Of a stretch of 21,133 nucleotides of DNA, positions 3,726 through 20,492 are shown in pieces. Source of the DNA: a virus; IMG/VR virus record IMGVR_UViG_3300046529_000116, positions 1 through 21,133 of that record; one strand, written 5' to 3'. The notes below the pieces were generated by a model, which saw only the letters and a list, made by a program, of their open reading frames with translations, had not been told where the DNA came from and searched no databases. A program made the translations under genes and the position numbers. Position 1 is the stretch's first letter, and the number at the start of each line of letters is the position of its first letter.

Positions 3726-3947
3726 CTAACTAGATTCTATATTCATTGTAGCTAATTGAACTACTTCTGACCCTAACATACTTCCAATATCCGCTTTAAC
3801 ACCATCCAAAGCTGCTGATATACTCGCCAAACTAATAACTGATTTCTGTCCTACAAATGTATCTGATCCAGTATCCTTTTTCCATATAGCATATGCATAT
3901 GGACCATTAGTAATAACCTTTACTATATTAACCTTAAATGTTGCCAT
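3726..3947 (-). CDS. Small uncharacterised protein after the tail fibre gene, 73 residues
   Basis: ATG at 3947 overlaps the stop of the large fibre gene (TAATG), so it is probably translated by coupling with the fibre. The gap to the next gene is 8 nt. The first half looks like beta strands (FKVNIVKVITNGPYAYAIW) and the second half like a helix (VISLASISAALDGVKADIG). There is no signal peptide or membrane span. A small gene directly behind a fibre could encode a fibre chaperone or tip protein, but nothing in the sequence shows this. Confidence 0.65.
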   Translation of the reverse strand: MATFKVNIVKVITNGPYAYAIWKKDTGSDTFVGQKSVISLASISAALDGVKADIGSMLGSEVVQLATMNIESS

Positions 3948-5788
3948 TAGGATACCCTCATATAGATATCATATTTACCTGATCCATATGTTCCACCTGT
4001 CTTAGTTACTGCATATGTAAAGTTTCCAGATGATCTACGAACAGGGATAGAGAAGTAAGCATAGTTAGCTATATTATTTAAGTTGAATCCTGTAATACAG
4101 TCTAATGTTTTTGCTCCAGATTGATCCGTCCATCCTATTGTTACTTTAACTACTGGATTGTTAACTGCGTCAGCTGTAGAACATAGAATATACACATCTA
4201 AACAATATATCTGAGTAAAGGCAGAAAGTAATGTAGCTGTTGGAGTTACGTTAGTAGTACCTTTATCTGCATTCTGTGCGGTAGCTGATCCATTAGCAGC
4301 AGTTGATACTTTATTTGTTATACTTTGTGAAGCTACTGTAGTAACTAATGTACCACCAGTAGTTGGTAATATTAATGAAATACTTCCAGAAAATGCTGGT
4401 AATAAAAGAGAGTAATCGTTTCCTGTTCCATCAAATGCATATAACCAAACTTGTCCTCCACCACTACTAACTAAAGACTCCATACCAAAACCACTATTAC
4501 CATCTGTATATAATAATCCATTAATGTTTAAGTTAGCATTAATGACACTATTAGCACTAGCAGTAAATCCATTACTAAAAGTAAGATTACTAGTAAAGAT
4601 TTGAGCATTACCTCCTAGTACAGCTAATGTATTAGGAGTAACACCACTTTCAGGTAACTTGAATACTTTAGTAGATCCAGTTAAAATAGCCGATAAATCA
4701 AAGGTAGCTTGTTTTGTTATATCTCCAGAAGCCTGTAACTTAAATCTATCATCACGATAAGTTTGTAATGCTCCCCATGTTTGAGCTAAATCAATGAGAG
4801 CAATTGTTCCTGATGCATCCGGTATTGTTATTGTTCTAGTATTAGCAGCGGTAATACCCGATAGCTGAAATTGTAATTGCTTAGTAGGAGTTACATCATC
4901 TTGAATTATGAATACATTATCTTTAATTGTTAATCCAGTTGGAGCAACTGTTCCACTAAATACACCATTAATATCAACATATGCTACTTCTGTTCCTGCT
5001 ATGCCTCTGAAAGATAATAAACGTCCTGAAACAAGTTGTGTTGCTCGTGCAGCTATAACTAAACTAGGGGAAGAATCTGCCATCCCCGCTACACCTTCAC
5101 TATTAAGATATAAAAGTATTCCAGCAGCATTAGGAGTATCACTACCACTAAAAATAACTTTACCAGTATCTCCTATTAAAACTTGTCTAGATATTAATAT
5201 TGCATTACCACTAGGACTGCCACCAACTGTGATAGGACTAAAATAAGCTATTAAGCGTCTAGAAACACTGTGACCTATAGCTTGAAGAGTGTAATTAACC
5301 CATCCGGGGCTATTTGGACTAAAAGCAGTAAATGTATATGTTCCAACACCACCAATATTAAAAGCTGTCTGATTAGGAGTATAAGTACTAGTTGATTGTA
5401 AAGCTACTTGTCCTGGAGTTACTACAATCTCTAGAGTATCTTGATTAACAGGAGGACTATTTAATCTAGAAATTAAAAATTTATCGGGAACACCGTTAGC
5501 GAATAAAAATTGTGTAGTACCTCTAACTATCTGACTTGGTGTTCTACCATTAAGATAAAGATATTGAGGGTGATCATCATATAGAGTAAGATTAGTTAAT
5601 AAATGGTGATCACTAATTCCAGCAGGAGGAGAAACAGGAGTACCCGTACTTCCTGTTAAAGTAACTCCTACCGCATTAAATCCCTGTTCTAATAACCAGA
5701 AGTTATAACGAAAGGATTCTAATTCAGCAGGAGTAAAAGCTTTAACTGTACTGATATCTCTAAGCTTAAATGGCTTGATATCAGCCAT
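3947..5788 (-). CDS. Tail fibre / receptor-binding protein, 613 residues
   Basis: The N-terminal 45 residues (IKPFKLRDISTVKAFTPAEL...) probably attach the protein to the virion. Residues 60-82 carry a D-HH-L ... DDHPQYLYLNGR motif widely seen in phage fibre and appendage proteins. The middle is a Thr/Ser/Gly-rich beta-strand protein with fibre-type repeats: TITIPDASGT (319-328), VFKLPESG (375-382) and LILPTTGGT (472-480). The last 100 residues alternate strands and end in SGKYDIYMRVS, likely the C-terminal head domain. It starts at ATG 5788, one base after the upstream stop. No cleavage or depolymerase motif was seen. Fibre identity is strong; the receptor is unknown. Confidence 0.85.
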   Translation of the reverse strand: MADIKPFKLRDISTVKAFTPAELESFRYNFWLLEQGFNAVGVTLTGSTGTPVSPPAGISDHHLLTNLTLYDDHPQYLYLNGRTPSQIVRGTTQFLFANGVPDKFLISRLNSPPVNQDTLEIVVTPGQVALQSTSTYTPNQTAFNIGGVGTYTFTAFSPNSPGWVNYTLQAIGHSVSRRLIAYFSPITVGGSPSGNAILISRQVLIGDTGKVIFSGSDTPNAAGILLYLNSEGVAGMADSSPSLVIAARATQLVSGRLLSFRGIAGTEVAYVDINGVFSGTVAPTGLTIKDNVFIIQDDVTPTKQLQFQLSGITAANTRTITIPDASGTIALIDLAQTWGALQTYRDDRFKLQASGDITKQATFDLSAILTGSTKVFKLPESGVTPNTLAVLGGNAQIFTSNLTFSNGFTASANSVINANLNINGLLYTDGNSGFGMESLVSSGGGQVWLYAFDGTGNDYSLLLPAFSGSISLILPTTGGTLVTTVASQSITNKVSTAANGSATAQNADKGTTNVTPTATLLSAFTQIYCLDVYILCSTADAVNNPVVKVTIGWTDQSGAKTLDCITGFNLNNIANYAYFSIPVRRSSGNFTYAVTKTGGTYGSGKYDIYMRVS

Positions 5789-5789
5789 A

Positions 5790-6368
5790 TTAACCTACCT
5801 GTAGATACTTTATTGTTACAGCATTAGCAGGAAGATTAGTACCAATACCCGAAACATTAGTCCAAATTTGTATTCTTATTTGATTACTTACTTTAACAAT
5901 TCCAGTAGCATATAAAGTTGGCGTACCCGGAGTATTAGGAATATCTATTTGTACACAAATAGGAAGATAAGTACCCCAAGCTAATCCAGTATCCCACTGA
6001 AGTCCTGACTGACCATTAAAACCTGCAACGGATAATATACCCGGATTAGATAGAGACTTAACATCTAGTCTAGCTAGATCAATTGCTAGTAATCCTACTT
6101 TAGCTCTAGTTGCTGCTCCATCTATTAACTCAGGTGTTCCTACTGATACATCATTAATTCTAGTTTGAGGAACACCATTGGGTTTAGCAGCAAGACAAGT
6201 ACCGGGAATAGCTGCTAATGGATCTATATTGATAGCACTAATACCACCATTGATAGTATCATATACTTGATTGATATCATTATTAGCTTCACTAGCTAAG
6301 ATATCAGCACCAACTTGATAATCTTTATTACCTCCAACAATCTTATTTGGTCTAGTTATAGTTCCCAT
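5790..6368 (-). CDS. Short fibre-like / appendage protein, 192 residues
   Basis: ATG at 6368 has an AAGG site 5 nt upstream. The N-terminal part (ITRPNKIVGG, EANNDINQVYDTINGGI) resembles adaptor segments of phage fibre or appendage proteins. The middle is Ala/Gly/Pro-rich and the last 80 residues are beta-rich (WGTYLPICVQIDIPNTPGTP, IRIQIWTNVSG). It sits between the nozzle-like gene and the large fibre gene, so it could link the fibre to the tail or form a second short fibre. No enzymatic motif is visible. Confidence 0.7.
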   Translation of the reverse strand: MGTITRPNKIVGGNKDYQVGADILASEANNDINQVYDTINGGISAINIDPLAAIPGTCLAAKPNGVPQTRINDVSVGTPELIDGAATRAKVGLLAIDLARLDVKSLSNPGILSVAGFNGQSGLQWDTGLAWGTYLPICVQIDIPNTPGTPTLYATGIVKVSNQIRIQIWTNVSGIGTNLPANAVTIKYLQVG

Positions 6369-6375
6369 TTTAACC

Positions 6376-8277
6376 TTATGCTAAGGGAAGTACTTCTACC
6401 AATCCCGTAATCATATTCATTCCAAGTTCAGTTGCTCCACCATCAGTTATTTCTAATCTAGGTGACGTAGCTCTAGACTCATCAAAGGTAGTAAATACTA
6501 CTGCTGATGTATTACCACCCCATTTACCTCCACCAGCATCAAGTCCCCAATTAACTCCACTATCCCATTTAGCAGGAGTAATTAATAAAGGAGTAATTAA
6601 TCCTTGCTGCTCTCGTCCATCAGTATCATCTATATGAGTAATACGTAAATCTGCATCGTTGCTAAAAGTACAATGTATAAATAGTTTAAGAGTAAGAACA
6701 TCAGCTAACATTCCTAAAGGACCGATAGAAAGTCCCGCTGTTCCATATATTTTGTTACCCCTATCATTTTTAGTAAACTCTGTTCTAACTCTAAGATAAC
6801 TACCATTAGCTATTCTAGCTTCTCCCCAAGTTAGCTCACCTTTATCTAACTTAGAGTCCCAAGTACAATAACAAGAAGGATTGTAGAAATCTCCATTCTC
6901 ATGGGGTCCTTCCCACTTGTTATTAATTAAATCATACTCTAACGTTCTCCAATTATATCCCTTATTGTTACGCTGATCATAACTTAAAATATATCTATCA
7001 GCATGGTAAGCTGCTACTACCCTAGATAGAGCAGTTTCAGTCATACCTGTAAATTCAGATTGAATACCTTGCCCTATATCTTGTAAGTTAGTTCCATCAA
7101 AGTTAAATACCTTACCCTTCTGTGATAAGAAAGTTAATCCATTAGGACTAGTTGTACAAGAGTAAGGAGATACTGTACCTACTCCACCGCTCTTATTATC
7201 AGAAGGTTGTATATTAATTAATCCATATCCAAATCCACGAGATAACCAACAAGAATTTCTTTTAAAGAATACTAATCCACCTGCTACCTTTCCTACTCCT
7301 GTTAGAATATCATTATCATTATTCTGTACTGCAAAGAATCCTGTAGAACTAATGATACGATCAGGAAATCCTACATCAGAAACTTTAACTAAAGAAGCAT
7401 TAACACCTGCCATACCAAACCAATAAGCACGATCATCAAATCCCATGATTACATATCGTGCATCAGTAGGTGGTGCTTCCACAGCTACATAGTCAACTCC
7501 TAAGGCTGTATCAACTATTAAGTCTGTATATGTAGTAGCTCCACTAGCTCCTGTTATTTCAGTTAATAAATGATATACATCTAAATTAGCCGCTGTACGA
7601 TAAATACGTTTAGCAGTCTGCCCATACTTAGCAGCAGCATTAACAAGACCTGATATATTAACAGAATTCTGAGTACCTGTTAAAGTAACTGTAGATACTC
7701 CAATTACTACAGGAGAACCCGGACCTTCTCCTAAGTCTCCTTGTACACAAGTAACTATATATTTATATGTAGCTAATAATGTAAGTAATCCGCCACCTGT
7801 AGTAGCGCCTACACAAGTAGGAGTAGGAGGCTGTAATAATCCTGCATAGATATTATCAGTACCATTATATCGCTGAGGTTTAGTTCCATCAGCAATATAC
7901 ATACGATCTTTATATACCATCCAACTAGCTAGTTCTACAGTAGACATAATATTAGCAGGAGTACCATCTATGTCTATTGCAGTCCAAGCTCCGGATACAT
8001 CATCCCCTTTAAATAATTTACCGCCGGCACCAGCAATTACCATTCGAGTACCATCTGCTCTGTAATATCTAGCATTAAGTAATACTCGGGTATCACCATT
8101 CATCTTAGCTGGTGCTGTACCATAATTACCATGACCGGGACGTTTAGTTAATGTACCCCTACGTCCTATCCTGATATTACGACACATCCATAGTTCATCT
8201 TTATTTAACTCTATAGGCGGATCAACTAAATTAACACCACCTGTAAAAGGTCCTAATTGTAAAGGAGTAGCACTCAT
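6376..8277 (-). CDS. Tail nozzle-like protein (P22 gp10 / T7 gp12 type), 633 residues
   Basis: The N-terminus has the pattern typical of podovirus nozzle proteins: FTGGVNLVDPP, then CRNIRIGRRGTLTKRPG at residues 32-48. Repeated blade-like beta segments follow (MVIAGAGGKLFKG, WMVYKDRMYIADGTKPQRYNG, GLTFLSQKGKVFNFDG), as in a beta-propeller. The length suits this family. The gene directly follows the adaptor gene with an ATGA overlap at 8277, the usual adaptor-nozzle order. In related phages the protein forms the hexameric tube below the adaptor through which DNA leaves. I assign it from motif and context; fold prediction would settle it. Confidence 0.8.
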   Translation of the reverse strand: MSATPLQLGPFTGGVNLVDPPIELNKDELWMCRNIRIGRRGTLTKRPGHGNYGTAPAKMNGDTRVLLNARYYRADGTRMVIAGAGGKLFKGDDVSGAWTAIDIDGTPANIMSTVELASWMVYKDRMYIADGTKPQRYNGTDNIYAGLLQPPTPTCVGATTGGGLLTLLATYKYIVTCVQGDLGEGPGSPVVIGVSTVTLTGTQNSVNISGLVNAAAKYGQTAKRIYRTAANLDVYHLLTEITGASGATTYTDLIVDTALGVDYVAVEAPPTDARYVIMGFDDRAYWFGMAGVNASLVKVSDVGFPDRIISSTGFFAVQNNDNDILTGVGKVAGGLVFFKRNSCWLSRGFGYGLINIQPSDNKSGGVGTVSPYSCTTSPNGLTFLSQKGKVFNFDGTNLQDIGQGIQSEFTGMTETALSRVVAAYHADRYILSYDQRNNKGYNWRTLEYDLINNKWEGPHENGDFYNPSCYCTWDSKLDKGELTWGEARIANGSYLRVRTEFTKNDRGNKIYGTAGLSIGPLGMLADVLTLKLFIHCTFSNDADLRITHIDDTDGREQQGLITPLLITPAKWDSGVNWGLDAGGGKWGGNTSAVVFTTFDESRATSPRLEITDGGATELGMNMITGLVEVLPLA

Positions 8278-9977: not shown

Positions 9978-9998
9978 TTGTCTGATCTCCCCATCATG

Positions 9999-10015
9999 GT
10001 GCAGAACAACTGCAC
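9999..10015 (-). repeat. Hairpin between coat and decoration genes
   Basis: The inverted repeat GTGCAG / CTGCAC has a 5-nt loop and lies in the 55-nt gap between the coat gene stop and the next gene's GTG start. No T-tract follows in the direction of transcription, so it is not a standard terminator. It could stabilise the coat mRNA 3' end or mark a processing site, helping coat to be made in excess. The structure is seen; the role is inferred. Confidence 0.4.
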
Positions 10016-10032
10016 GGTATGGTTATGATTTT

Positions 10033-11004
10033 CTACGTCATTCCGCCAAGACGAGCCTGACGGGCACGATTGCTACATACAAAATTACCCATAACTAGAA
10101 CCTGTGAAGTCTTAGCATCCTGATTCTCAGGACGAACGAAAGGAGTAGTAATGAAATCAGTCTCCTTATCAATCGTCACTGCAAGATACTTAGAATTCAG
10201 TAAGAACATCGTACCTGCCGGACAATACTCATCAAATCCAAGTACTAATCCCTTGAACTTGAGAAGTTCAAAGCCGGAGTTTCCGACCTTATTATCCGGA
10301 GTATTCATCTCATACTTAGCATTCTGAACTAAAAGGTTCTCATAGTTCTCATGCACAGTACGAGTAGTAATACCGATATCAGGATGCTCATTACCACGTG
10401 ATGCTAAGTTGTACTGAGCACGCATAGCAGCAAGGTAGAAAGTATTATTACCTACTGCACCCTGCCACTGATTCTGCCACCAAGTAGCTACCGAAGAATC
10501 AATACCACCAACAGTACCGAATCCTCCAGTAGTACCATCCTCTACTAGAAGATCTAACCCGAAGAAATCCTTCGAGTTATTACCAGTACCATCACCAAAC
10601 ATCTGCTGGTCTAATACATCCTTGTAGGTAATCTCTAACTGAGATACCTTAGACTCAAGCAGATTGATGATACGCTGCTTACCACTATTCTGACGCTCTT
10701 CCTTACGGCTAATAGAAACACTACCAGCTAACTGCTTCCACGGATACTTAGCCGCAGTGATACCTTCCTGCGGAGTAACATCAATTTCCTCATATCCGTC
10801 ATATGACTTAACAGTGGAGTTCTTACCATACATCAGTGAAACAATGATGGATTCTCCACCATCCTCATAAATCTTACGCTGGTTATTAAATAGCCACCAG
10901 AATAAGAAGAAACTATTGCTTAAGTTATCAACCAGTGTCTCGCGGTAATTTGCAATAGTGGTTGATAACAAAGCATCAAACGCAGTATTTCCAGGAAGTG
11001 CCAC
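10033..11004 (-). CDS. Major capsid protein, 323 residues
   Basis: The start is GTG at 11004, with AGGAG about 10 nt upstream. The sequence has the features of a HK97-fold coat protein family common in uncultured tailed phages. These include an N-terminal helix (DALLSTTIANYRETLVDNLSN), a WWLFNNQRKIYEDGGESI segment (the equivalent of the E-loop/N-arm region), SVSISRKEERQNSGKQRIIN, and a long helix ending in YKDVLDQQMFGDG. Later strands such as YLAVTIDKETDFITTPFVRP are typical of the P- and A-domains. It follows the acidic scaffold candidate and precedes the decoration candidate, the classical head order. No prohead protease gene is seen nearby. Confidence 0.85.
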   Translation of the reverse strand: MALPGNTAFDALLSTTIANYRETLVDNLSNSFFLFWWLFNNQRKIYEDGGESIIVSLMYGKNSTVKSYDGYEEIDVTPQEGITAAKYPWKQLAGSVSISRKEERQNSGKQRIINLLESKVSQLEITYKDVLDQQMFGDGTGNNSKDFFGLDLLVEDGTTGGFGTVGGIDSSVATWWQNQWQGAVGNNTFYLAAMRAQYNLASRGNEHPDIGITTRTVHENYENLLVQNAKYEMNTPDNKVGNSGFELLKFKGLVLGFDEYCPAGTMFLLNSKYLAVTIDKETDFITTPFVRPENQDAKTSQVLVMGNFVCSNRARQARLGGMT

Positions 11005-11018
11005 TTAGATTAAGCTCC

Positions 11019-11867
11019 TTAACGAGGAATTTTAAAACCTTGTTTAGTAAGAGAATTAATAGCATCCTGTGCAGCTTGCTGGAAAGTTCTCTTACCCGTA
11101 GTCTTATTAGTATCAGACCCTTCAGAAGTTGTAGGCTTAAGACTCTTAGCATTCTTCTTGGACTTAAGGATCGCCATCTTATTTTGCTTCTGCATAGTTG
11201 ACTTCTTAGCAAGGAACAATGCATCTTCGTACGATAACTTAGGGTTATCTTCAAGAATATCATCCATCCTATTTGCATACAACTTCCAGTCTGGATTATC
11301 CTTCTTGAATTGATTAGCCCTCTTAATCATCACACGATTATAACGTTCCTGCTTTTCTGCACGATCCCTTTCCTCCATCTTGCTAGTAATCTTTTCCTCT
11401 AACTTCTGTAGGTGCTTAGCAGTTAATGGAGCATCCTCAGCCTCATCATCCGCAGTATCATTAGATGATGTAGATTTAGGATTCTCATTTAATGATTTAG
11501 CCCATGCCTGAAAGCGGGGGTCATTTACTATAGCCTGAAATTGGCGTGCCTGCTTTACTACAGCAGTTGCCTCTTGCATTCTCCTAGTAAAGATACCCTG
11601 CATTTCCTTAAATGGACCGCGAAGCTCCTTAGGAACTGATTCTGGATCAGTGAAATACTTTCTAGTAATTTCAGCTGAATCCGTAGTATCAGTATCCTCC
11701 GAGTCATCTTCGCTAGTGTCACTTCCATCATCACTAGTATCTGCTTCTACATCAGCATCAGTAGATTCATCCGTATCCTCGACTGAAGTATCTGTACTAT
11801 CATCAGTAGATGAAGTATCAGTACTATCATCATCGGGAACATTTGGATCACCGATTCGAAACCCCAT
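11019..11867 (-). CDS. Scaffolding protein candidate, 282 residues, highly acidic N-terminus
   Basis: Residues 12-66 are an unbroken Asp/Ser/Thr/Glu-rich low-complexity tract. Helical, charged coiled-coil-like segments follow (about 85-125 and 145-195). The C-terminal 50 residues are basic (KSKKNAKSLKP, TGKRTFQQAAQDAINSLTKQGFKIPR). An acidic front, helical middle and basic C-terminal helix that can bind coat is the layout of procapsid scaffolds such as P22 gp8. It lies between portal and coat, where scaffolds are normally encoded. The ATG at 11867 overlaps the preceding gene by 20 nt. Confidence 0.78.
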   Translation of the reverse strand: MGFRIGDPNVPDDDSTDTSSTDDSTDTSVEDTDESTDADVEADTSDDGSDTSEDDSEDTDTTDSAEITRKYFTDPESVPKELRGPFKEMQGIFTRRMQEATAVVKQARQFQAIVNDPRFQAWAKSLNENPKSTSSNDTADDEAEDAPLTAKHLQKLEEKITSKMEERDRAEKQERYNRVMIKRANQFKKDNPDWKLYANRMDDILEDNPKLSYEDALFLAKKSTMQKQNKMAILKSKKNAKSLKPTTSEGSDTNKTTGKRTFQQAAQDAINSLTKQGFKIPR

Positions 11868-12189
11868 TATACTTACTCACTTTCTCTCTTGAGTTTGTTT
11901 TACGAAGTAAGTCATCATACTGTTGTCTACTCGTGACATATACAGGATCAGGAGTTAGATGTTCAATTAAGACACCCTTCGTAGAACGTTTAGTTAATAG
12001 ATGATGAACAGGATCTTCCGTTTTACTAACATGAATTGTTTTCTTTGCATTAGCCTTATACTCAGTAGCTACATCACGATATGACCATAACCCACAAGTA
12101 GGACACCTATGTCTACGATCACGTTTAATTAGAGGCTTACTAATTTCCTCTACATGATTATTACCACACCTATAAATATACATAGGCAT
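11848..12189 (-). CDS. FmdB-like zinc-ribbon protein between portal and scaffold, 113 residues
   Basis: The start ATG abuts the portal stop (TAAATG), with AGGAG upstream. The N-terminus MPMYIYRCGNNH followed by RHRCPTCG reads as a zinc ribbon: C8 and H12 pair with C29 and C32. This is close to the MPxYxYRC start of FmdB-type ribbons. The remaining 75 residues are basic (NAKKTIHVSKT, LLTKRSTKG, YDDLLRKTNSREK), so nucleic-acid contact is possible. It overlaps the scaffold start by 20 nt. It may be a regulatory or minor head protein; the role is unknown. Confidence 0.72.
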   Translation of the reverse strand: MPMYIYRCGNNHVEEISKPLIKRDRRHRCPTCGLWSYRDVATEYKANAKKTIHVSKTEDPVHHLLTKRSTKGVLIEHLTPDPVYVTSRQQYDDLLRKTNSREKVSKYNGVSNR

Positions 12190-14088
12190 TTAAATAGGAC
12201 TCCTAGCTAATGCTGTGCCTCCCCGTCCTCCGGGGATCGGCGGCTCGTTTCCCGGAAGGCCACCAAGGCTTTCAGGATTCTCCGATTTCGCAATACCCTG
12301 CTTAGTTGGATCAGGAACACTCGCGGGAGCGGTCGGCGATCCTGATGGATTTATGAGCCTTGGAAGCAAAAGTCCCTTGGACACCGCCATAGACATTTGC
12401 TCTTCTAGCATTTTGTATATCTCTTCATTTAAGTAACTCTCAGGATTAGTCAAGTCAAACTTACGAGTTAGATCTTGACGTATCTTAACTTGATTGTAAT
12501 AAGGATCATTTTTAGTAATAGCATAAAACTGCATATACTGTGATCTATCAACTTCCTTATTGATAGGAAGAGTAGAACCATAAATAATCTCAAAGTTAAC
12601 ATCACTCCTTAATTCATCATCATCCGTAACCTGTTGCCAATATTGAGCGTCATCTCCAATATACTTAGCTACTTGGTTAGCATCCATAAACTTCATACAC
12701 ATTTGCATTATACCAATAATAGTCTCTTGAACAAAATCACTAACAGCATCAATACGCTCTTCTACTCGTACTCGTGAACGAGCTGCTTTAATAGAAACTT
12801 CAGTAGCAGTCTGTCCACTATCTCCCATAGAAGCGTAATCATTAGTACCAAGAATAGCAAACAAACTTTCCATAATTCTATTTTCATACTGATACACTTC
12901 CGCAGGTAATGCAGCATCAGCTACAGGCCATATACCTTCACCAACGGGTTCATCTTGATAAGTAGATTCACACTGTACATAAGTACCATCTTCACCAGCA
13001 ACTAACTTTTCAATAGATGAGTCACTTAAGAATCCTGGCTTAGCTATATAACGACGATTGTATCTACGAGTATGACGAGCTTCCTTAGTACGAATATCAT
13101 TAAGTTCTAGTAACTGAGATTCAGCTGGTTCAATGTCACCTGTAGGATAGTAACGATCAGGTACTTCATTGAACCGTAATTCAATGTAGGGATGAAACTT
13201 ACTGTTTAAGAATCCAAATTCAAAGTCTTTCTCACTAAGGATATTAGGAGAACCCTCAGCTATAGTTATTACCTTAGAATTCTGACAATCATAAATTTCG
13301 TATAGTACATCATATTGTTCATCTTGATCACCAGAAATACGTCCACCTAATTCATATCCAGGCATTTCATGCATTACATCTTTTAATGACCAAGATGGCT
13401 TTAGATCACTTGTATTATACTCATCCATCTTTAATACAATATCATGCGGAAGAATAATACGTTCAGCTATCCACCATAATTGATCAGGTGTAGATGTAAC
13501 CGCAGGAACAATTATATTCCTAGGGGATACTCTTAGTGCCCACGGCATTTCTTTAGTTATCTTAAGATTTAGTAAATAGGAATCTTCTGCATCATCTTCT
13601 CCACCTAAACTAATACCCATCTTCTTAAGTAAGTCATCTACTAATGGAGTATCAGTAGTATCATTAAGATTCTGAGTTTCAAACTCAGTGTCATATCCTA
13701 ACTTGATATATGCAATACCTGTAAGTACTCCATCAAGAATACAGGACTTATTAGTACTCTTAAGTTTAAGCTCTTCAATCATGAAACGTGATAGTCTTTG
13801 TGATGTTAATGCACGCTTATCCGCTAAACCTCCATCCTCTACTATTTTCTGAGGACGTACAATAACATCAGGATTACGAGAGTACACAGCAGGTACAACA
13901 GTACGCACATGTGTATGAACCATATTCACACATACTTCATCTAAATCCTGCTGTGTCTGATTATTCTCATCAAAGTACTTACCTATCAAGTATCCATAAA
14001 TACGATTCCAGACCTTCTCTCGGGGTTTCCTATATTCAAGAGAAAGTCGTATTTTATCTTTCCACTCAGATACGACGTCATCAGACAT
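12190..14088 (-). CDS. Portal protein, 632 residues
   Basis: ATG at 14088 overlaps the terminase stop (TAATG). The N-terminal 80 residues (WKDKIRLSLEYRKPREKVWNR, VCVNMVHTHVRTVVPAVYSRNPDVIVRP) match podovirus-type portals, in which the YSRNP segment is common. Central WALRVSPRNIIVPA and YIELRFNEVPDRYYPTGD and the helix ESLFAILGTNDYASMGDSGQTATEVS are further portal-like segments. Length suits the family. The dodecameric ring is the DNA entry vertex and docks terminase and adaptor. The last 54 residues (about 579-632) are Pro/Gly-rich and likely disordered; their DNA is markedly G+C-rich compared with the gene. Confidence 0.88.
   Translation of the reverse strand: MSDDVVSEWKDKIRLSLEYRKPREKVWNRIYGYLIGKYFDENNQTQQDLDEVCVNMVHTHVRTVVPAVYSRNPDVIVRPQKIVEDGGLADKRALTSQRLSRFMIEELKLKSTNKSCILDGVLTGIAYIKLGYDTEFETQNLNDTTDTPLVDDLLKKMGISLGGEDDAEDSYLLNLKITKEMPWALRVSPRNIIVPAVTSTPDQLWWIAERIILPHDIVLKMDEYNTSDLKPSWSLKDVMHEMPGYELGGRISGDQDEQYDVLYEIYDCQNSKVITIAEGSPNILSEKDFEFGFLNSKFHPYIELRFNEVPDRYYPTGDIEPAESQLLELNDIRTKEARHTRRYNRRYIAKPGFLSDSSIEKLVAGEDGTYVQCESTYQDEPVGEGIWPVADAALPAEVYQYENRIMESLFAILGTNDYASMGDSGQTATEVSIKAARSRVRVEERIDAVSDFVQETIIGIMQMCMKFMDANQVAKYIGDDAQYWQQVTDDDELRSDVNFEIIYGSTLPINKEVDRSQYMQFYAITKNDPYYNQVKIRQDLTRKFDLTNPESYLNEEIYKMLEEQMSMAVSKGLLLPRLINPSGSPTAPASVPDPTKQGIAKSENPESLGGLPGNEPPIPGGRGGTALARSPI
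12220..12236 (-). repeat. GC-rich hairpin near the end of the portal gene
   Basis: A perfect inverted repeat TCCCCG / CGGGGA with a 5-nt loop lies inside the portal's Pro/Gly-rich 3' end, about 30 nt before its stop. No T-tract follows on the coding strand, so it is not a classical terminator. It may be a by-product of Pro/Gly codons, or it may slow ribosomes or polymerase before the zinc-ribbon gene. Confidence 0.35.
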
Positions 14089-15671
14089 TACGACTTCCTC
14101 GTGTTATATGCACCAAGACGCTTCTTATGCTTATTCTTAAACCTATCCCTAGTAGCTGTAAATGATCTGGGATTGATACGCTTAAGAATAGCTAATACTC
14201 CGGGACTCTTGGTTAGCTGTGTAATATAAGACAAAGCATCTATAGTATCTTCATTAGCTACTTTAGGATAGCGAGTTAACTCATCAACTAAAGTAGCCAT
14301 ACCACCTGTTAAATTTTCTAACTTACCATCCCTACAGGGAATAATGAATAACCCAGCTTTCCAATAAGGAACCATTCCCTTAATACGCATACGCTTAGTA
14401 ACACGAGTATCAGTTTGTAATTCAACAATAGGTAACTTAATACCTTTCATGATACCAAGTAACTGAACATACTTCTTAAAAGTCTTTTGCCATGCTACTG
14501 TTTCAAATCCCATCTTGATAGGTTTGAATTCATTAAATACTTTAGCTAAGGTATCAACAGTATCATGTTCGTCAGCTTTAACTCGCACACAGTCTAATAT
14601 GTAATTTTGCCATTTATCATCTATTCCAACGGTGGTAACTGCAAGATAATCTTTTCCGTCCTCATCTCGCATAGGATCAATGGTGGAATAGACATTAAGT
14701 CTTTTAGGGACTTCGGAAAAGTCACATGTACGTATCCATGATCTTTTGAAGGTAGCTGTATCATCATCAATCGGGTTAAGTCTATATTGACAGGAGAATA
14801 CGTATGGTCCCTGTTCAACTAACTGATCCCGTAAGAAGTCTGCACTAAGTCTTTCTGGCCATAATAAATCGGAATCCCTAACTCGGCCTTTAAGTAAATC
14901 ATCATTAGTTCCTTTAAAGCTGTCTCGGATGAATACGTCGAATCTAGCTGGTAAACCAATCTCCTCCCTACTTCTCTCTTTATTGATGATATAGTTGTAA
15001 AGATCATTGTAGTGCCAGATAGTCCCCTTAATATATAGATAACCACCAGGATCAAGCAGAGAGAATAGAAGTCGATACCATCCAATAACTTTATCTATTT
15101 GATCCTGATTCATTGTGTTTTGTTCATCATGCGGATCATCCACATGAATTACATCATAATGCATACTAGTGGTAGTAACATCAACACCCGCACACATAAT
15201 CGTAGGTTCCTTCTTACGCTTAGTGCGGGTACCAATTATAATATCACTAGCATTCCACTTTCTAGCATTCTTCTTAAGATCTCCATAGATAGACTTAAAC
15301 TCTTCATTATCTTCTACATGACCTATAATCTCTTCTAAAATCTTAGTAGCATTAGTAAACTTCTTAGAGGCTAATAAGATACGAACATTTGGATTGTTAA
15401 TCATCTGCTGAATAGACAATCCAATCGTACCTATCGAAGTCTTAAGAGAGCCACGGGGAGTAAGAGACATCTTGAAATGATTATTAGGATTTTCAAGGTG
15501 TCTGCAATACTCTCCGTGGAACCCATGTTTATTTGTTAAATCTTTATACCCTAAAATCTCTTTACAGAGAAAATGTAAATCTCGCATTCCCAGTCGGCGT
15601 TTTTGTTCTTTTAATAGGCCATGAAGCCTCTCTTTATTTTCGGTTAAATAACTAGTTTCCAGAAGGGACAT
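14088..15671 (-). CDS. terL: Terminase large subunit (TerL), 527 residues
   Basis: The ATPase half has a Walker-A-like TPRGSLKTS (71-79) of the PRGxxK[ST] type, Walker B DVIHVDDPHD (173-182) and a coupling motif KGT (215-217). The C-terminal RNase H-like nuclease shows the expected acidic residues: D332 in STIDPM, E390 in MGFETV and D478 in EDTIDALS. The protein cuts concatemeric DNA and drives it through the portal. ATG at 15671 has a GAAGGTGG site and overlaps the small-subunit gene by 20 nt. The Walker A form is that of T7 gp19-like enzymes. All catalytic residues I can check are present. Confidence 0.93.
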   Translation of the reverse strand: MSLLETSYLTENKERLHGLLKEQKRRLGMRDLHFLCKEILGYKDLTNKHGFHGEYCRHLENPNNHFKMSLTPRGSLKTSIGTIGLSIQQMINNPNVRILLASKKFTNATKILEEIIGHVEDNEEFKSIYGDLKKNARKWNASDIIIGTRTKRKKEPTIMCAGVDVTTTSMHYDVIHVDDPHDEQNTMNQDQIDKVIGWYRLLFSLLDPGGYLYIKGTIWHYNDLYNYIINKERSREEIGLPARFDVFIRDSFKGTNDDLLKGRVRDSDLLWPERLSADFLRDQLVEQGPYVFSCQYRLNPIDDDTATFKRSWIRTCDFSEVPKRLNVYSTIDPMRDEDGKDYLAVTTVGIDDKWQNYILDCVRVKADEHDTVDTLAKVFNEFKPIKMGFETVAWQKTFKKYVQLLGIMKGIKLPIVELQTDTRVTKRMRIKGMVPYWKAGLFIIPCRDGKLENLTGGMATLVDELTRYPKVANEDTIDALSYITQLTKSPGVLAILKRINPRSFTATRDRFKNKHKKRLGAYNTRKS

Positions 15672-16206
15672 TGGCCACCTTCAACTGCTTTGATAGCATT
15701 TCAATTTCTTTCTGTAACTCTTCGTCACTCTTCTCAGTTTCACCTGTACGATCTATAATTTCAGACTTATCTACTAGATCACCCGTCATCTTTAAGAAGT
15801 TCCAAGTATCCTTCATGCTGCCTCGTGCTAATGCACGATGAACATTACGATAAGCATGAACTAACATGAAATTTCTACGACGACGAATTTCCTTAGCTAA
15901 CTGTTCAATAAAGAATGGCTCATTACGCCAACGACTAAACGTAGTATCTTCAACACCAATACGTCTAGCAATCCAACTATAGCTATAATTATGAACAAAG
16001 TCAGTCATCAGGTGAATAGCCATCAATTGCTGATCAGTTAAAAACTTAGGCCGCATCTGATGTTCTGCCCAAGTATCAACTGTTTTCTTAAATGACTTCT
16101 GTTCTTTTGCATTCTTAAGTCTTTCTAATCTACGTCCTTCAATACCTACTAATCTCTTCTCAAATACACGTAACTCTTTAAGGGGCTTCTTAAACTTGAT
16201 TGCCAT
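15652..16206 (-). CDS. terS: Terminase small subunit (TerS), 184 residues
   Basis: A helix-turn-helix is visible at about residues 72-96 (SYSWIARRIGVEDTTFSRWRNEPFF), followed by a basic helix (AKEIRRRRNFMLVHAYRNVHRAL) and a C-terminal charged coiled-coil-like tail (DEELQKEIEMLSKQLKV). This layout, and the position directly before and overlapping TerL, identifies the DNA-recognition subunit. The N-terminal 50 residues are very basic. It binds the packaging site; a candidate site is the repeat-rich spacer at 20589-20735, which is speculation. Confidence 0.85.
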   Translation of the reverse strand: MAIKFKKPLKELRVFEKRLVGIEGRRLERLKNAKEQKSFKKTVDTWAEHQMRPKFLTDQQLMAIHLMTDFVHNYSYSWIARRIGVEDTTFSRWRNEPFFIEQLAKEIRRRRNFMLVHAYRNVHRALARGSMKDTWNFLKMTGDLVDKSEIIDRTGETEKSDEELQKEIEMLSKQLKVANVPSGN

Positions 16207-16212
16207 TTTAGG

Positions 16213-16308
16213 TTAGCCTTTTATAATTAGAAGGATTAAGACTATAACAAAAATTCCACAGCCAACTAAGACTATGGGGGAGACTTTTTTGTATGTCTCA
16301 ATCCGCAT
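16213..16308 (-). CDS. 31-residue membrane peptide, lysis block
   Basis: The gene is short and easily missed. ATG at 16308 overlaps the stop of the 71-residue membrane protein (TAATG), and the TAA at 16213-16215 lies 6 nt before the TerS start. The peptide begins MRIETYKKVS and continues with one hydrophobic stretch (PIVLVGCGIFVIVLILLII, about 11-29) ending KG, so it should sit in the membrane with a basic N-terminus. The junction pattern matches seven others in this operon, which supports real coding. A holin, antiholin or pinholin-like helper is possible. Confidence 0.6.
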   Translation of the reverse strand: MRIETYKKVSPIVLVGCGIFVIVLILLIIKG

Positions 16309-16523
16309 TATTTATCCTCTTCGATTTCAGATAATTGTTCAATAGTGACGAGCTTGTTATTTAACAAGATACGCGTAATGAAAGTAATAGTACGCGAATT
16401 CCTCTCGTCACTTTGAACAACTTTATCTAGAGTGAGTTTTGTTATCCAATAGAATCCTGTAATACCAAGTATTACTACGCCTAATGAAGAAATAGCAAGT
16501 ATTTGATTTATTGAGAGGCCCAT
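16308..16523 (-). CDS. One-span membrane protein, holin candidate, 71 residues
   Basis: I choose ATG at 16523, 7 nt after the exported protein's stop, over a GTG at 16577 that would overlap that gene by 47 nt. Neither start has a strong ribosome site, so this is a judgement. The protein starts MGLSINQ and has a single span at about 7-29 (ILAISSLGVVILGITGFYWI). A charged cytoplasmic-looking tail follows (DKVVQSDERNSRT) and ends in acidic residues. A one-span protein beside an endolysin fits a class III holin or spanin-like role. The family is not recognised. Confidence 0.6.
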   Translation of the reverse strand: MGLSINQILAISSLGVVILGITGFYWITKLTLDKVVQSDERNSRTITFITRILLNNKLVTIEQLSEIEEDK

Positions 16524-16530
16524 AAGAAAA

Positions 16531-18579
16531 CTATTGATCCGTATCTGGATTATTTCCGTTTCCGCCCCCGGATACACGATTAACTAAAATTGCTAAATGC
16601 ATTAGAGGGAGGATTGGGTCATTGGTGGATAAGTCAATACCAACATTGATATCTCTAGTAGGTGTATGGGCACAAGTAACTTTAACATTTCTAGTAGCAT
16701 CTACTCCAATATTGTAAGTAGTACTATCTGCCGAGAATACACCACCTGCTGATGTTTCAAATACAAAGTTATTTAATATTAGTGTAGCTGTTCCTATATT
16801 ATGAATTTTATAGGTTACAGAAGAATCTACACAAGTGATACATAACATTGTAGGAAAAGAAGCAGATGCTAATTCTACCTGTGGAGATCCTGTATGAGCA
16901 GTAGAACCTACATCACTACCAGATGATCCTACTCCAATAGCAGGAGAACCTACTCCTAATCGTGGATCAAAATAACTAGTAGTAGGATTCCAATTTATAG
17001 GTCTAATTAACTTATTAATTAAAGGATCAACACTACCTACAACTGATAAACTATCTCCACCTTTAACTGTAGTTACAGCATTCCATGCACCACCCGATCC
17101 ACTAGTAGAACAGAAATAACCATTATTATACCACCCAATATTACGATCTCCTATTGCAGTAGTATAACTAGTTATATTATATAAGTTATACTGAGTAAAT
17201 AAACGATTCTGCCAGAAGGCAATATTACCGTAGAATACTCCCCAATCTAAATCCCATTGAGCTAAGTTACCCGGTTTACAGGAAGTAAATTGAGTTGACG
17301 AAGTTCCCTGCTGAAATATGTTATTAGTTACAGTTAGAGAGTTATAAGGAAGCGAAGAACCAAAATCCTTATTATCCCATAACTGAAGGATACCTAGTTT
17401 AGTATCTCCAACTAGAGTATTATGATCTATAACACTAACAGCTGGAACAGGACCTTTAATAAAAATATGTCCAGTATGAGTAGCTAGTGTATTATATAAA
17501 AGATCATTACCATTCATAGGTTCAAAGTAAACAAAACTAAAATGCTCTCCTTGTACTAAACAAGAATCGAAGTCTACATCAGCCATAGTTCCTGGAAGAT
17601 TCCCAGAAGATGTAATTATCTGTTGGCAAAATGCTGGACCTAAAGCTAATAATGTATCACCAATGAATGCAAAATGCATTGTACTATCACGGATAGTAAC
17701 TAATGATAAACTACTAGGACAATCTCCAGTACCTTCACGAGTATCATTATTTGTAAACGTAAGTCTACAGTATTTAATAGTAGAATTAGATGTATGGAAA
17801 AACTTAGTAGCAGAAGTCCAGTCTCCTGTTACACTAGTTGGCTGTATTGTAAAGTCTACTGTGTTAAACCAAAAACTAGTACTATCTACGTATCCATGTG
17901 GAGTAGGATCTCCTATAGGAACTGTTTGTCCCCAATAGAAGAGATTAGCTGAAGTAAATAAAACCTTTCCTACATCCCACATATGATTGTAAAAAATTTT
18001 ATTTCCTATACACTTAGAATTAGCAGCATGACCTAATACATAAGTTCCATTATCATCAATCGAACCATACTGACTTTGAAATGAATTCCAAGCAATGTAG
18101 TTATAATCAGTATGTGCTAATCCATAACCTCGATCAAAATTACAATACTGTACTGAATCTCTACTTGATCCCTGATCTAAAAACAACCCGCATAAAAAAT
18201 GTATACCCTTAATACTAACATAAGGTTTTATAGTAGAACAACTAAAGACCTTAACTCTTGATCGTATAGTTGAATCTGTTAAGCAGTCTCCGTCAAGCGA
18301 TGCACCAATGAATGTAATAAATCCGCCACCAGTAGGATTGCTACCGGCACTATCAGGATTAATAGAAGTATCAGAATAGTAGTTACTGCCAGTATCATAC
18401 ACGTATACTTTATCACCCGGTAGCGTAGCGTGATTTGCTTTACCAATTGTACGCCATGCGGTTGACCATGATGTTCCGGGATTTCCATCTGACCCATCTA
18501 TACGTAAGTAATATGTGGTAGCAAATACAGGAGAAGCTAACAGGAGCAACCCTGTTAGTATTCCTAGGATTTTCTTCAT
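16531..18579 (-). CDS. Sec-exported parallel beta-helix protein with C-terminal choice-of-anchor-D/ASH-like domain, 682 residues
   Basis: ATG at 18579 has a GGAAAGGA site. A textbook signal peptide (MKKILGILTGLLLLASPVFA) should be cut after residue 20 (VFA|TT); there is no lipobox. Residues 23-60 (LRIDGSDGNPGTSWSTAW..., ATLPGDKVYV) begin a right-handed beta-helix of the kind found in secreted bacterial proteins. Repeats such as NYIAWNSF, CIGNKIFYNHM and VIDHNTLVGD extend to about 540, closed by LGVGSPAIGVG. Residues about 574-667 read as an ASH/choice-of-anchor-D-like domain (IHNIGTATLILNNFVF, STNDPI). Such proteins bind or cut polysaccharide. A signal peptide on a phage late gene between endolysin and holin candidate is unusual. 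No clear catalytic residues were identified. Confidence 0.85.
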   Translation of the reverse strand: MKKILGILTGLLLLASPVFATTYYLRIDGSDGNPGTSWSTAWRTIGKANHATLPGDKVYVYDTGSNYYSDTSINPDSAGSNPTGGGFITFIGASLDGDCLTDSTIRSRVKVFSCSTIKPYVSIKGIHFLCGLFLDQGSSRDSVQYCNFDRGYGLAHTDYNYIAWNSFQSQYGSIDDNGTYVLGHAANSKCIGNKIFYNHMWDVGKVLFTSANLFYWGQTVPIGDPTPHGYVDSTSFWFNTVDFTIQPTSVTGDWTSATKFFHTSNSTIKYCRLTFTNNDTREGTGDCPSSLSLVTIRDSTMHFAFIGDTLLALGPAFCQQIITSSGNLPGTMADVDFDSCLVQGEHFSFVYFEPMNGNDLLYNTLATHTGHIFIKGPVPAVSVIDHNTLVGDTKLGILQLWDNKDFGSSLPYNSLTVTNNIFQQGTSSTQFTSCKPGNLAQWDLDWGVFYGNIAFWQNRLFTQYNLYNITSYTTAIGDRNIGWYNNGYFCSTSGSGGAWNAVTTVKGGDSLSVVGSVDPLINKLIRPINWNPTTSYFDPRLGVGSPAIGVGSSGSDVGSTAHTGSPQVELASASFPTMLCITCVDSSVTYKIHNIGTATLILNNFVFETSAGGVFSADSTTYNIGVDATRNVKVTCAHTPTRDINVGIDLSTNDPILPLMHLAILVNRVSGGGNGNNPDTDQ

Positions 18580-18588
18580 GTTCCTTTC

Positions 18589-19086
18589 CTACGCAGATAG
18601 AGGTAACTTAGAAAGATCAGCAAACTCAAAGTGCATACCATCTTTACGGGTACCTTTAAAATTACCACCCCATGCGAAACCATACTTAGCAAATATCTCT
18701 ATGGTTAATGGATCAACTTTAGGATCAGACCCAAATGGATTATCAGCAACATCAAGATCAATTGCTGTTCCCCATGAGTGTCTAGATAACTTGGTTGACT
18801 TACGTTGCATACGAAACACAAAACATCCACCATAGTCATTTATGGTGGGTGATGTGAAAGGATTAGTAAGAACTTCATCGAGAGCTGATTTAAGAATAGG
18901 TGCAATAAGTTTATTACACCTTACTTTGGTAACTTGAACATTAGGATTCCAACAAGTTGTTAGAGGTTTAATCAGAGGTATAGTAACAATCCAAAGCTTC
19001 TCATATTCAGGACCAAGTGTTCCTGTATCATCACAGTACTGAATAGGATTACCAAAAATTTTATTGAGCTGATCGTCAGTTAACAT
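18589..19086 (-). CDS. M15 family peptidase (endolysin: L-Ala-D-Glu / D-Ala carboxypeptidase type), 165 residues
   Basis: The zinc site is clear: H103 and D110 in SRHSWGTAIDLD, and H152 in DGMHFEF, with D149 as the likely general base, as in M15C endolysins. The aromatic YGFAWGGNF segment before the last histidine is also typical. The protein cuts the peptide stem of peptidoglycan at the end of infection. There is no signal peptide or separate wall-binding domain, although residues 1-90 are a longer N-terminal region than the minimal fold needs. The holin candidates downstream would release it. Confidence 0.88.
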   Translation of the reverse strand: MLTDDQLNKIFGNPIQYCDDTGTLGPEYEKLWIVTIPLIKPLTTCWNPNVQVTKVRCNKLIAPILKSALDEVLTNPFTSPTINDYGGCFVFRMQRKSTKLSRHSWGTAIDLDVADNPFGSDPKVDPLTIEIFAKYGFAWGGNFKGTRKDGMHFEFADLSKLPLSA

Positions 19087-19088
19087 GA

Positions 19089-19511
19089 TTATGCCGGAAT
19101 GAGTAAGGTTGGAGTTACTCGAACAACACAGTTAGTATCTCCGGTATCATTTGATGCTGTGAATGCTATGTAGTTTTCAAAAGCTATATTAGGCATAGCT
19201 ACTTGCGAAGAGTACATATAGAAAGTAAGAGGATTAGTAACACTGTTGGATATTAACAATGTTGCAGAAACTACTGTAGGAGCAAAGGTAAAGATTGTAG
19301 GTTGAGGAATAGGGATGGCAGTAATACCATCCTTAGAGAAGATAGGAGTAAATAAGTCAAGTGTGCAATCAGCAGCATCTGTTCGCCAAATTTCTATCTT
19401 GAGGAAATCTGCTGCATTGGTAGGAAACCAACCTGTAGTAGCCACATTAGCAGCTGGACTTGCTAATGGAATTAAACAGGCTAAGGAGGTTGATCTAGTA
19501 GAACGTCTCAT
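19089..19511 (-). CDS. Uncharacterised beta-rich protein, 140 residues; paralogue of its upstream neighbour
   Basis: ATG at 19511 has a consensus AGGAGG site. The protein begins MRRST and shares an ordered set of motifs with the product of 19523-20002: W[FY]PT.[GA]AxxLK[IV]EIW, FSKDG[IL]TA, [FW]E[ND]YI[AS]F and a final VTP..L.PA. It is beta-strand-rich with few charges. It is probably a tandem duplicate that has diverged to about half identity or less. No fold is recognised; a virion surface or small fibre role is possible. Confidence 0.72.
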   Translation of the reverse strand: MRRSTRSTSLACLIPLASPAANVATTGWFPTNAADFLKIEIWRTDAADCTLDLFTPIFSKDGITAIPIPQPTIFTFAPTVVSATLLISNSVTNPLTFYMYSSQVAMPNIAFENYIAFTASNDTGDTNCVVRVTPTLLIPA

Positions 19512-19522
19512 GTAGGTCCTCC

Positions 19523-20002
19523 TTATCCTGATGCAGGACTTAGGTAGATAGGAGTAACTTTAATATTAACACCAGTTAAGGTTGAGTTAGCTGGTGGACC
19601 TGTGATAGATAGAATAGATAATCCAAAACTTATGTAATCTTCCCAACAGGTACTAGAGAATTGAGCTAGGTTAGGATAGACTATAAAGATTCCTGGATTG
19701 GTAGGACTTGCAGGAATAGTAGCAGCACCACTAGAAGGATGCACACTAATAATAGAACCTACTGCTGGTCCAACAACACCTGCTGTTAAACCATCTTTAG
19801 AAAAGAATATTAAACATTGATCAATAGTATCTACTAGTCCTGTTACTGCTTGGATAGCATCACACCATATCTCAACTTTAAGAATTTCAGCACCACGAGT
19901 AGGCCAGTACTGTGCAACTCCACCAATTGCAATAGGTAATGCGGCAGGAGCAGTAGGAATACTAAAACCAGATATGGTTGTTGGTGTTCCTGATCTTCTC
20001 AT
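19523..20002 (-). CDS. Uncharacterised beta-rich protein, 159 residues; paralogue of its downstream neighbour
   Basis: I choose ATG at 20002, which overlaps the upstream stop as TGATG and makes the product begin MRRSG like its paralogue. An in-frame TTG one codon earlier is less likely. Shared motifs are YWPTRGAEILKVEIW (32-46), FFSKDGLTA (66-74), CWEDYISF and VTPIYLSPA at the end. An insert before FSKDG and a longer Gly/Pro loop explain the extra length. The spacing of motifs supports gene duplication. The function is unknown. Confidence 0.72.
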   Translation of the reverse strand: MRRSGTPTTISGFSIPTAPAALPIAIGGVAQYWPTRGAEILKVEIWCDAIQAVTGLVDTIDQCLIFFSKDGLTAGVVGPAVGSIISVHPSSGAATIPASPTNPGIFIVYPNLAQFSSTCWEDYISFGLSILSITGPPANSTLTGVNIKVTPIYLSPASG

Positions 20003-20229
20003 CAATCACTCTCGACTAATTCCAACTCTGGCGCATTATCAAGAATCATTGTCATTGAATATTCTTTACCAACTTCATATCCCATACGCCCTATTGAAGC
20101 AAGTGTTATTGTTCCAGCAGGAAGTGAAGTCGTGGGTTTGATCTGAAAATCATGAACAAATAAAAGATGCTGCTTACCCTGCTGATCTGCAACCATTCGC
20201 TCTGAGACTGCAAGTAATATAAAGATCAT
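20002..20229 (-). CDS. Small uncharacterised protein, 75 residues
   Basis: ATG at 20229 overlaps the preceding stop (TAATG), and its own stop overlaps the next start (TGATG), so it is coupled on both sides. The first 9 residues are hydrophobic (MIFILLAVS) but too short for a signal peptide. The rest is mixed (LLFVHDFQIKPTTSLPAGTI, EYSMTMILDNAPELELVESD) with an acidic end. I do not recognise it. The double coupling argues for real coding. Confidence 0.62.
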   Translation of the reverse strand: MIFILLAVSERMVADQQGKQHLLFVHDFQIKPTTSLPAGTITLASIGRMGYEVGKEYSMTMILDNAPELELVESD

Positions 20230-20492
20230 TATCCATTCTTATCCATATCAGAAGCATGGGGGTTACCAGCAGGCATAACAGGATTAGTACGCTTGCTAGT
20301 TGTAGTGGAACCAGATGCACCAGAAGGATTGGAACGCTTATTAAAACCACCCTTGAAAGAATCAGCAGAAGGAAGATGTGCCATTTGTGAACCACTATCA
20401 GACTTAGCACCACCAATACTTCCTGAATCCCCAGCAGGTCCAACTTTGTAGATGTTTGCCTTAGGTGTAGGACCTAATACGTTGTCTGCCAT
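20229..20492 (-). CDS. Small disordered Ser/Gly/Asn/Pro-rich protein, first gene of the operon, 87 residues
   Basis: I choose ATG at 20492, which has a GGGGG run about 7 nt upstream. An in-frame GTG at 20504 has no such site. The product is low in hydrophobic residues and rich in Ser, Gly, Asn, Pro and Lys (SGSIGGAKSDSGS, SNPSGASGSTTTSKR), so it should be unstructured. No domain is visible. As the first gene behind the spacer it would be among the earliest on the late transcript. The stop is shared with the next start (TAATG). Confidence 0.6.
   Translation of the reverse strand: MADNVLGPTPKANIYKVGPAGDSGSIGGAKSDSGSQMAHLPSADSFKGGFNKRSNPSGASGSTTTSKRTNPVMPAGNPHASDMDKNG

Follow-up and report, generated by a model that had tools for sequence, protein, structure and literature searches.

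A beta-helix protein with a predicted Sec signal peptide encoded in the lysis block of an environmental phage

The phage contig considered here (IMG/VR record IMGVR_UViG_3300046529_000116; its 21,133 nt, taken as a whole, are called the window) encodes on the minus strand, at 16531–18579, a protein of 682 residues in which a Sec-type signal peptide directly precedes a right-handed beta-helix, and the gene lies in the lysis block, between an M15 peptidase endolysin and small genes for proteins with one transmembrane segment. A first-pass annotation had singled out this open reading frame, and both its architecture and its placement in the lysis block are borne out. Phage depolymerases are mainly regarded as components of the virion, apart from a few soluble ones that lysis sets free. 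The explanation favoured here, with a probability of about 0.45, is that the product is a cysteine-rich, glycan-acting protein which is exported late through the Sec system, does not become part of the virion, and is released around lysis. If true, Sec export of a depolymerase encoded beside the endolysin would imply that the phage readies the cell exterior before the burst.

The IMG/VR record is identical with the window and contains the 682-codon frame at exactly these positions; across 11,916 nt the window agrees with a further contig (IMGVR_UViG_3300047444_000182) at 100% identity, so the frame is not an assembly accident of a single contig. Its ATG is a credible start, judging from the Shine-Dalgarno-like sequence AGGAAAGGA (18582–18590, minus strand) just 5′ of it, which overlaps the stop codon of the endolysin gene; a further in-frame start candidate, TTG, is found at codon 11. 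Codon usage, compared with that of the neighbouring genes as the first-pass annotation had proposed, cannot be told apart from that of the other phage genes (z about 0.5). There is therefore no sign of recent capture, which is ruled out on this measure for the host as donor, and the gene appears to have been kept by the phage. Of the earlier suggestion of a captured host gene only the architecture is left in its favour.

Residues 1–20 (MKKILGILTGLLLLASPVFA; 18520–18579, minus strand) were recognized as a Sec signal peptide by a rule-based scan asking for a positively charged n-region, an uncharged h-region, an AXA-type site and no transmembrane segment thereafter, all of which are found in the protein; cleavage is predicted between A20 and T21. 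The score of 5.69 is the best in the window, the next two being weak (3.88 and 3.78), and the signal peptide is a clean one, as had been noted. The same rule fires on one of 90 open reading frames of at least 300 aa in MCP-related phages and on none of 48 of that size in four records of Bacteroidota phages. In cellular relatives there are signal peptides at the same boundary, and the predicted cut coincides with the position where relatives devoid of a signal peptide begin. The protein contains 14 cysteines (2.05% versus 0.85% in the other proteins; Fisher p 0.006), a modest enrichment as other small proteins of the lysis block are also near 2%, which would be in keeping with an oxidising compartment. 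No lipobox, transmembrane segment or sorting domain is present in the sequence of the C-terminus.

The whole protein has no significant match in Pfam, PHROGs, NCBIfam or PDB, nor among phage and plasmid sequences, and a scan of genome contigs with the single 682-residue sequence retrieved no relative. Similarity resides in residues 19–131 (18187–18525, minus strand), the entry cap and first coils of the beta-helix, which are common to secreted bacterial proteins of the PL9/GH136 type. Here, residues 20–127 match the PelN profile NF041899 (E 1.2e-5) and the cap matches the Pel9A-like beta-helix family PF22842 (E 0.0055), both in the cap region only and under the curated cut-offs; it also matches GH136 7v6i (E 0.002, phmmer) and PL9 5olq (E 0.022). 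A local iterative HMM gave E about 1e-23 for the cap, a value referring to a database of one sequence and to a model made from fetched relatives that had been seeded by the same protein.

The following residues, 132–565 (16885–18186, minus strand), probably form the body of the right-handed beta-helix, with moderate confidence as the alignment is below 25% identity; there is no match to the Pfam Beta_helix family anywhere in the protein. Asparagine-ladder positions are apparent in an alignment of 37 sequences (N363, N387, N419/N420, N452 and N486), and an SPAIGVG motif is located close to the end of the body. AlphaFold modelling and Foldseek, both proposed in the first-pass annotation, support the expected fold class. 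AF2 on the 37-sequence alignment produced a regular beta-helix of stacked rungs (pTM 0.64; mean pLDDT 57, with the cap above 90), a model which may lean to the relatives because these are beta-helices and identity in the body is about 20%; from the single sequence the pLDDT was 32.5. The best solved matches in Foldseek were XylC, GH136 and PL9 enzymes and chondroitinase B, all with low TM-scores (for GH136, E 9e-6 but TM 0.23–0.26), and the surface adhesin PfbA, also a beta-helix, was among the fold matches. The fold class is thus credible on the modelling, the detailed shape of the model is not. The ASH or choice-of-anchor-D-like domain, claimed together with the beta-helix, fared less well: residues 586–654 (16618–16824, minus strand) resemble an ASH/HYDIN-like Ig domain when the domain is searched in isolation (PF22544, E 0.0024), but at 18.5 bits against a Pfam cut-off of 25.5 this is a weak resemblance only.

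Solved relatives of the cap, by profile and by fold, are glycan enzymes; nevertheless no enzyme class can be assigned to the protein because it lacks the DDGFD motif, which we take, from Pel9A, to be the calcium site of PL9; only DDNGT is found. PL9 membership is ruled out on this ground, and no catalytic residues were identified. The motif is present in two other members of the cap family (L074 and L088). The protein resembles the PL9 pectate and rhamnogalacturonan lyases (PelN, Pel9A, 5olq) in its predicted secretion and, by profile and structure, in the N-terminal cap and first coils, but not in the motif, and its body is beyond recognisable similarity. For the GH136 lacto-N-biosidases (7v6i, 7v6m, 5gqc) there is likewise sequence similarity of the cap and a match in fold, but reliable alignment is confined to the cap and does not reach the active-site residues.

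Viral and cellular sequence collections were scanned with a pattern built from the cap, for which reason the sampling of the family is not random. When a signal peptide is defined as a hydrophobic stretch of 12 residues lying no more than 60 residues ahead of the cap motif, one directly precedes the cap in 45 of 50 cellular rows but in only 2 of 22 viral rows, that is, the protein of the window and one from contig L018 (Fisher p 3e-11, or 7e-5 with the viral rows collapsed to nine clusters); L020/L039, with an export-like N-terminus far upstream of its cap, was counted as lacking it. Because of this distribution the 682-residue protein is, as far as its sequence tells, built like a secreted, glycan-acting protein of bacteria. 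The cellular members are secreted beta-helix proteins of soil and water bacteria. The viral ones without signal peptide (the IMG/VR group L023–L042 and gp049 of Cellulophaga phage phi17:2) share the cap, the beta-helix and a place among phage late genes with the protein of the window; they differ in beginning at or near the cap, many of them with M-A-T-Y-Y-V, right at its predicted mature end, and in L030 and L042 they are encoded among head-tail genes. phi17:2 gp049, taken by length and annotation as the 942-aa BFVD match R9ZZB2, starts at its cap; its annotation as a structural component of the virion derives from similarity to a protein of phi4:1. The family thus bears out the expectation that a signal peptide is normally missing from phage forms of this fold. 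In a tree of the cap the protein sits on a long branch, and the tree is compatible with more than one placement and origin; neither grouping with the viral clade devoid of signal peptides (p-AU 0.289) nor with L018 (p-AU 0.624) is rejected. L030 carries a tandem of two cap-family-like genes without signal peptide (9995–12181 and 12706–14790), placed between those for head and tail, the former with a C-terminal module common to other members of the L023–L042 group, and in L039 a phage-contig protein (9197–11419) combines an export-like N-terminus, a Gly-rich linker, a PKD domain and a cap-type beta-helix.

The contig is podovirus-like. All main genes are on the minus strand, in the order two paralogous small proteins, M15 endolysin, the 682-residue protein, two one-transmembrane open reading frames of 71 and 31 aa, TerS (15652–16206; phrog_7344, E 5.5e-9) and TerL (14088–15671; phrog_38, E 2.6e-71), beyond which follow a portal-sized protein, a scaffold-like protein, the major head protein and further structural genes; the fibre-like genes of the phage are found at 3947–6368, far from the gene considered here. 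The endolysin (18589–19086, minus strand; 165 aa, Peptidase_M15_4, PF13539, E 1.2e-14) is devoid of a signal peptide and is 32% identical to M15 proteins of Flavobacterium phages. A Bacteroidota host, suggested by these relatives, is disfavoured by Shine-Dalgarno-like motifs at 11 of the 25 gene starts of the window versus 5.3 in shuffled sequence (p 0.0045). The adjacent paralogues heading the block (19089–19511 and 19523–20005, minus strand) are 34% identical (E 1.7e-14) and match no family.

The 71-aa gene (16308–16523, minus strand) begins 8 nt past the stop of the 682-codon gene; its start is likely the ATG at 16523 rather than the GTG at 16577. The proposed holin candidate is present insofar as this small one-transmembrane protein is encoded 3′ of the gene, but it is only 71 aa long and matches no family in profile and sequence searches. 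Its stop is overlapped (TAATG) by the 31-aa frame (16213–16308, minus strand), also with one transmembrane segment, and the tandem (16213–16523) could be a holin pair. The tight packing of the block suggests one late transcript, which would include the 682-codon gene.

Export by the infected cell, rather than incorporation into the virion, is probable since the signal peptide is usual in the cellular members of the family and lacking in most phage relatives. Late synthesis, export, a glycan target and a role in release, as we infer them, would combine as follows. The protein would be made late, exported by the Sec system of the host and cleaved after A20; its mature form, a right-handed beta-helix as in secreted bacterial glycan-cleaving or -binding proteins, followed by an Ig-like domain at the C-terminus and lacking any visible anchor, would fold outside the cytoplasm, where the 14 cysteines could give disulfides. 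In a host with two membranes it would remain in the periplasm until the action of the endolysin frees it; in a host with one membrane it would act outside before lysis. The target would be the host's own surface or matrix polysaccharide around the time of lysis, and the result that capsule, EPS or debris no longer hold back lysis and the spread of progeny.

This mode of working would be similar to that of PghP and LevP of Bacillus phage phiNIT1, soluble and apparently non-virion depolymerases, except that export would precede lysis where those are released only at burst. PghP, a γ-PGA hydrolase, is reported to be late and apparently not a virion part, its synthesis falling at the close of infection and its release coinciding with the burst; it and LevP, a levanase, both seem to be acquired from a host (PMC6966330). 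They are phage-encoded proteins acting on capsule or EPS, as the 682-residue protein would be. The folds are different, and in place of the signal peptide found here the GH32 enzymes of Bacillus phages have none, which is the usual state for the phage form of such an enzyme and indicates that a phage need not export it (PMC4595243). That a phage lysis protein may use a true Sec signal is known from the endolysin Lys44 (PMC6116005). A literature search retrieved no report of a Sec-exported phage beta-helix protein, which is not proof of absence.

One alternative, that the protein is a spike or decoration of the virion, either exported and attached at or after lysis or retaining its N-terminus uncleaved, is somewhat unlikely. 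Viral relatives of the cap do occur in head-tail surroundings (L030, L042) or attached to an N-terminus of tail-fibre type (L021), and a structural protein of phi17:2 is among the BFVD matches; relatives starting at the cap show, though, that a signal peptide is not needed for such a role, and the gene is in the lysis block, away from the phage's own fibre-like genes. A tailspike depolymerase would be expected to have a virion-attachment domain and no signal peptide, while here the signal peptide directly precedes the cap, and no virion-attachment or other extra N-terminal domain is present. The contrast drawn in the first-pass annotation between a signal peptide and a virion role agrees with most phage relatives but is weakened as an exclusion by runs of late genes with signal peptides in two other phages. 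In L018, read from its sequence as a Bacteroidota-like phage contig, the cap with its signal peptide is encoded within such a run upstream of the endolysin; in this run, tail-like genes and one combining a tail-spike profile with a GDSL lipase domain stand side by side, so a spike passing through Sec keeps some probability. In MW202554.1 (L004), whose TerL ranks first (30%) among the matches in named phages, the stretch between portal and MCP (14767–20267) contains genes for proteins with predicted signal peptides (846 aa, 197 aa and a ConA-lectin-like one of 263 aa) and, after them, a GH28-like beta-helix gene that shows a signal peptide only when read from a GTG start.

Quite unlikely is a non-enzymatic accessory protein coating or changing the envelope, blocking superinfection or altering adhesion: beta-helix adhesins such as PfbA exist and a glycan binder can do without catalytic residues, but the C-terminus has no lipobox, transmembrane segment or sorting domain, and a late position beside the endolysin leaves little time for exclusion. 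The protein would, with still lower probability, be host-derived cargo of the accessory metabolic type, digesting environmental (e.g., pectin-like) polysaccharide for the infected cell, as its secreted soil and water relatives and the pectate lyase PelN as best profile match might suggest; codon usage is fully phage-like, a late lysis block is a poor site for a gene feeding the host, the PL9 motif is absent, and the fragment bears no sign of lysogeny. That the N-terminus does not work as a signal peptide, owing to an internal start (the TTG at codon 11) or to its being a membrane anchor, is highly improbable; the call comes from a rule-based predictor only, but the strong Shine-Dalgarno-like sequence before the ATG, the AXA-type site and the agreement of the cut with the start of relatives without signal peptide argue against this reading.

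A wider proposal is that some environmental phages recurrently and independently assemble a late, Sec-exported, glycan-acting beta-helix module as an exported counterpart to virion tailspikes, serving a matrix-dissolving step before lysis or yielding spikes which join virions outside the cytoplasm; with the window phage, L018, L150 and MW202554.1 as the putative cases, it is at present unlikely to hold in this form. L150 was found through TerL and encodes, one block upstream of it, a 741-aa protein with signal peptide (5448–7673); no Pfam family matches, so its assignment as beta-helix-like is a reading of the sequence only. The genes of these three phages resemble the one described here in joining a signal peptide to a beta-helix-type protein in the late region, and L150 also in its distance to TerL; the cap family is shared by L018 only, and the bodies are unrelated. 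Among 69 TerL-related loci, a large frame with a clear signal peptide by rule is present only in L149 and L150, and is hence not a fixed trait of the TerL lineage; among the 238 large frames of these loci only the L150-type one (on two contigs) passes, suggesting that such late genes are rare and scattered. An MCP alignment contained no stretch conserved enough for scanning. In the annotation of depolymerases or metabolic cargo genes of phages, it would be worth checking for export signals.

The run in L018 (5122–16735) comprises GDSL-lipase/tail-spike-like, beta-helix, RCC1-like (with PKD) and small proteins, all with signal peptides, followed by a muramidase-type endolysin. In L150, a dual-specificity-phosphatase-like frame separates the 741-aa gene from TerL. 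TerL of MW202554.1 (9804–12341) is interrupted by an intein-like insertion with an N-terminal Cys after a conserved FAC stretch, and is annotated as two terminase genes and one hypothetical.
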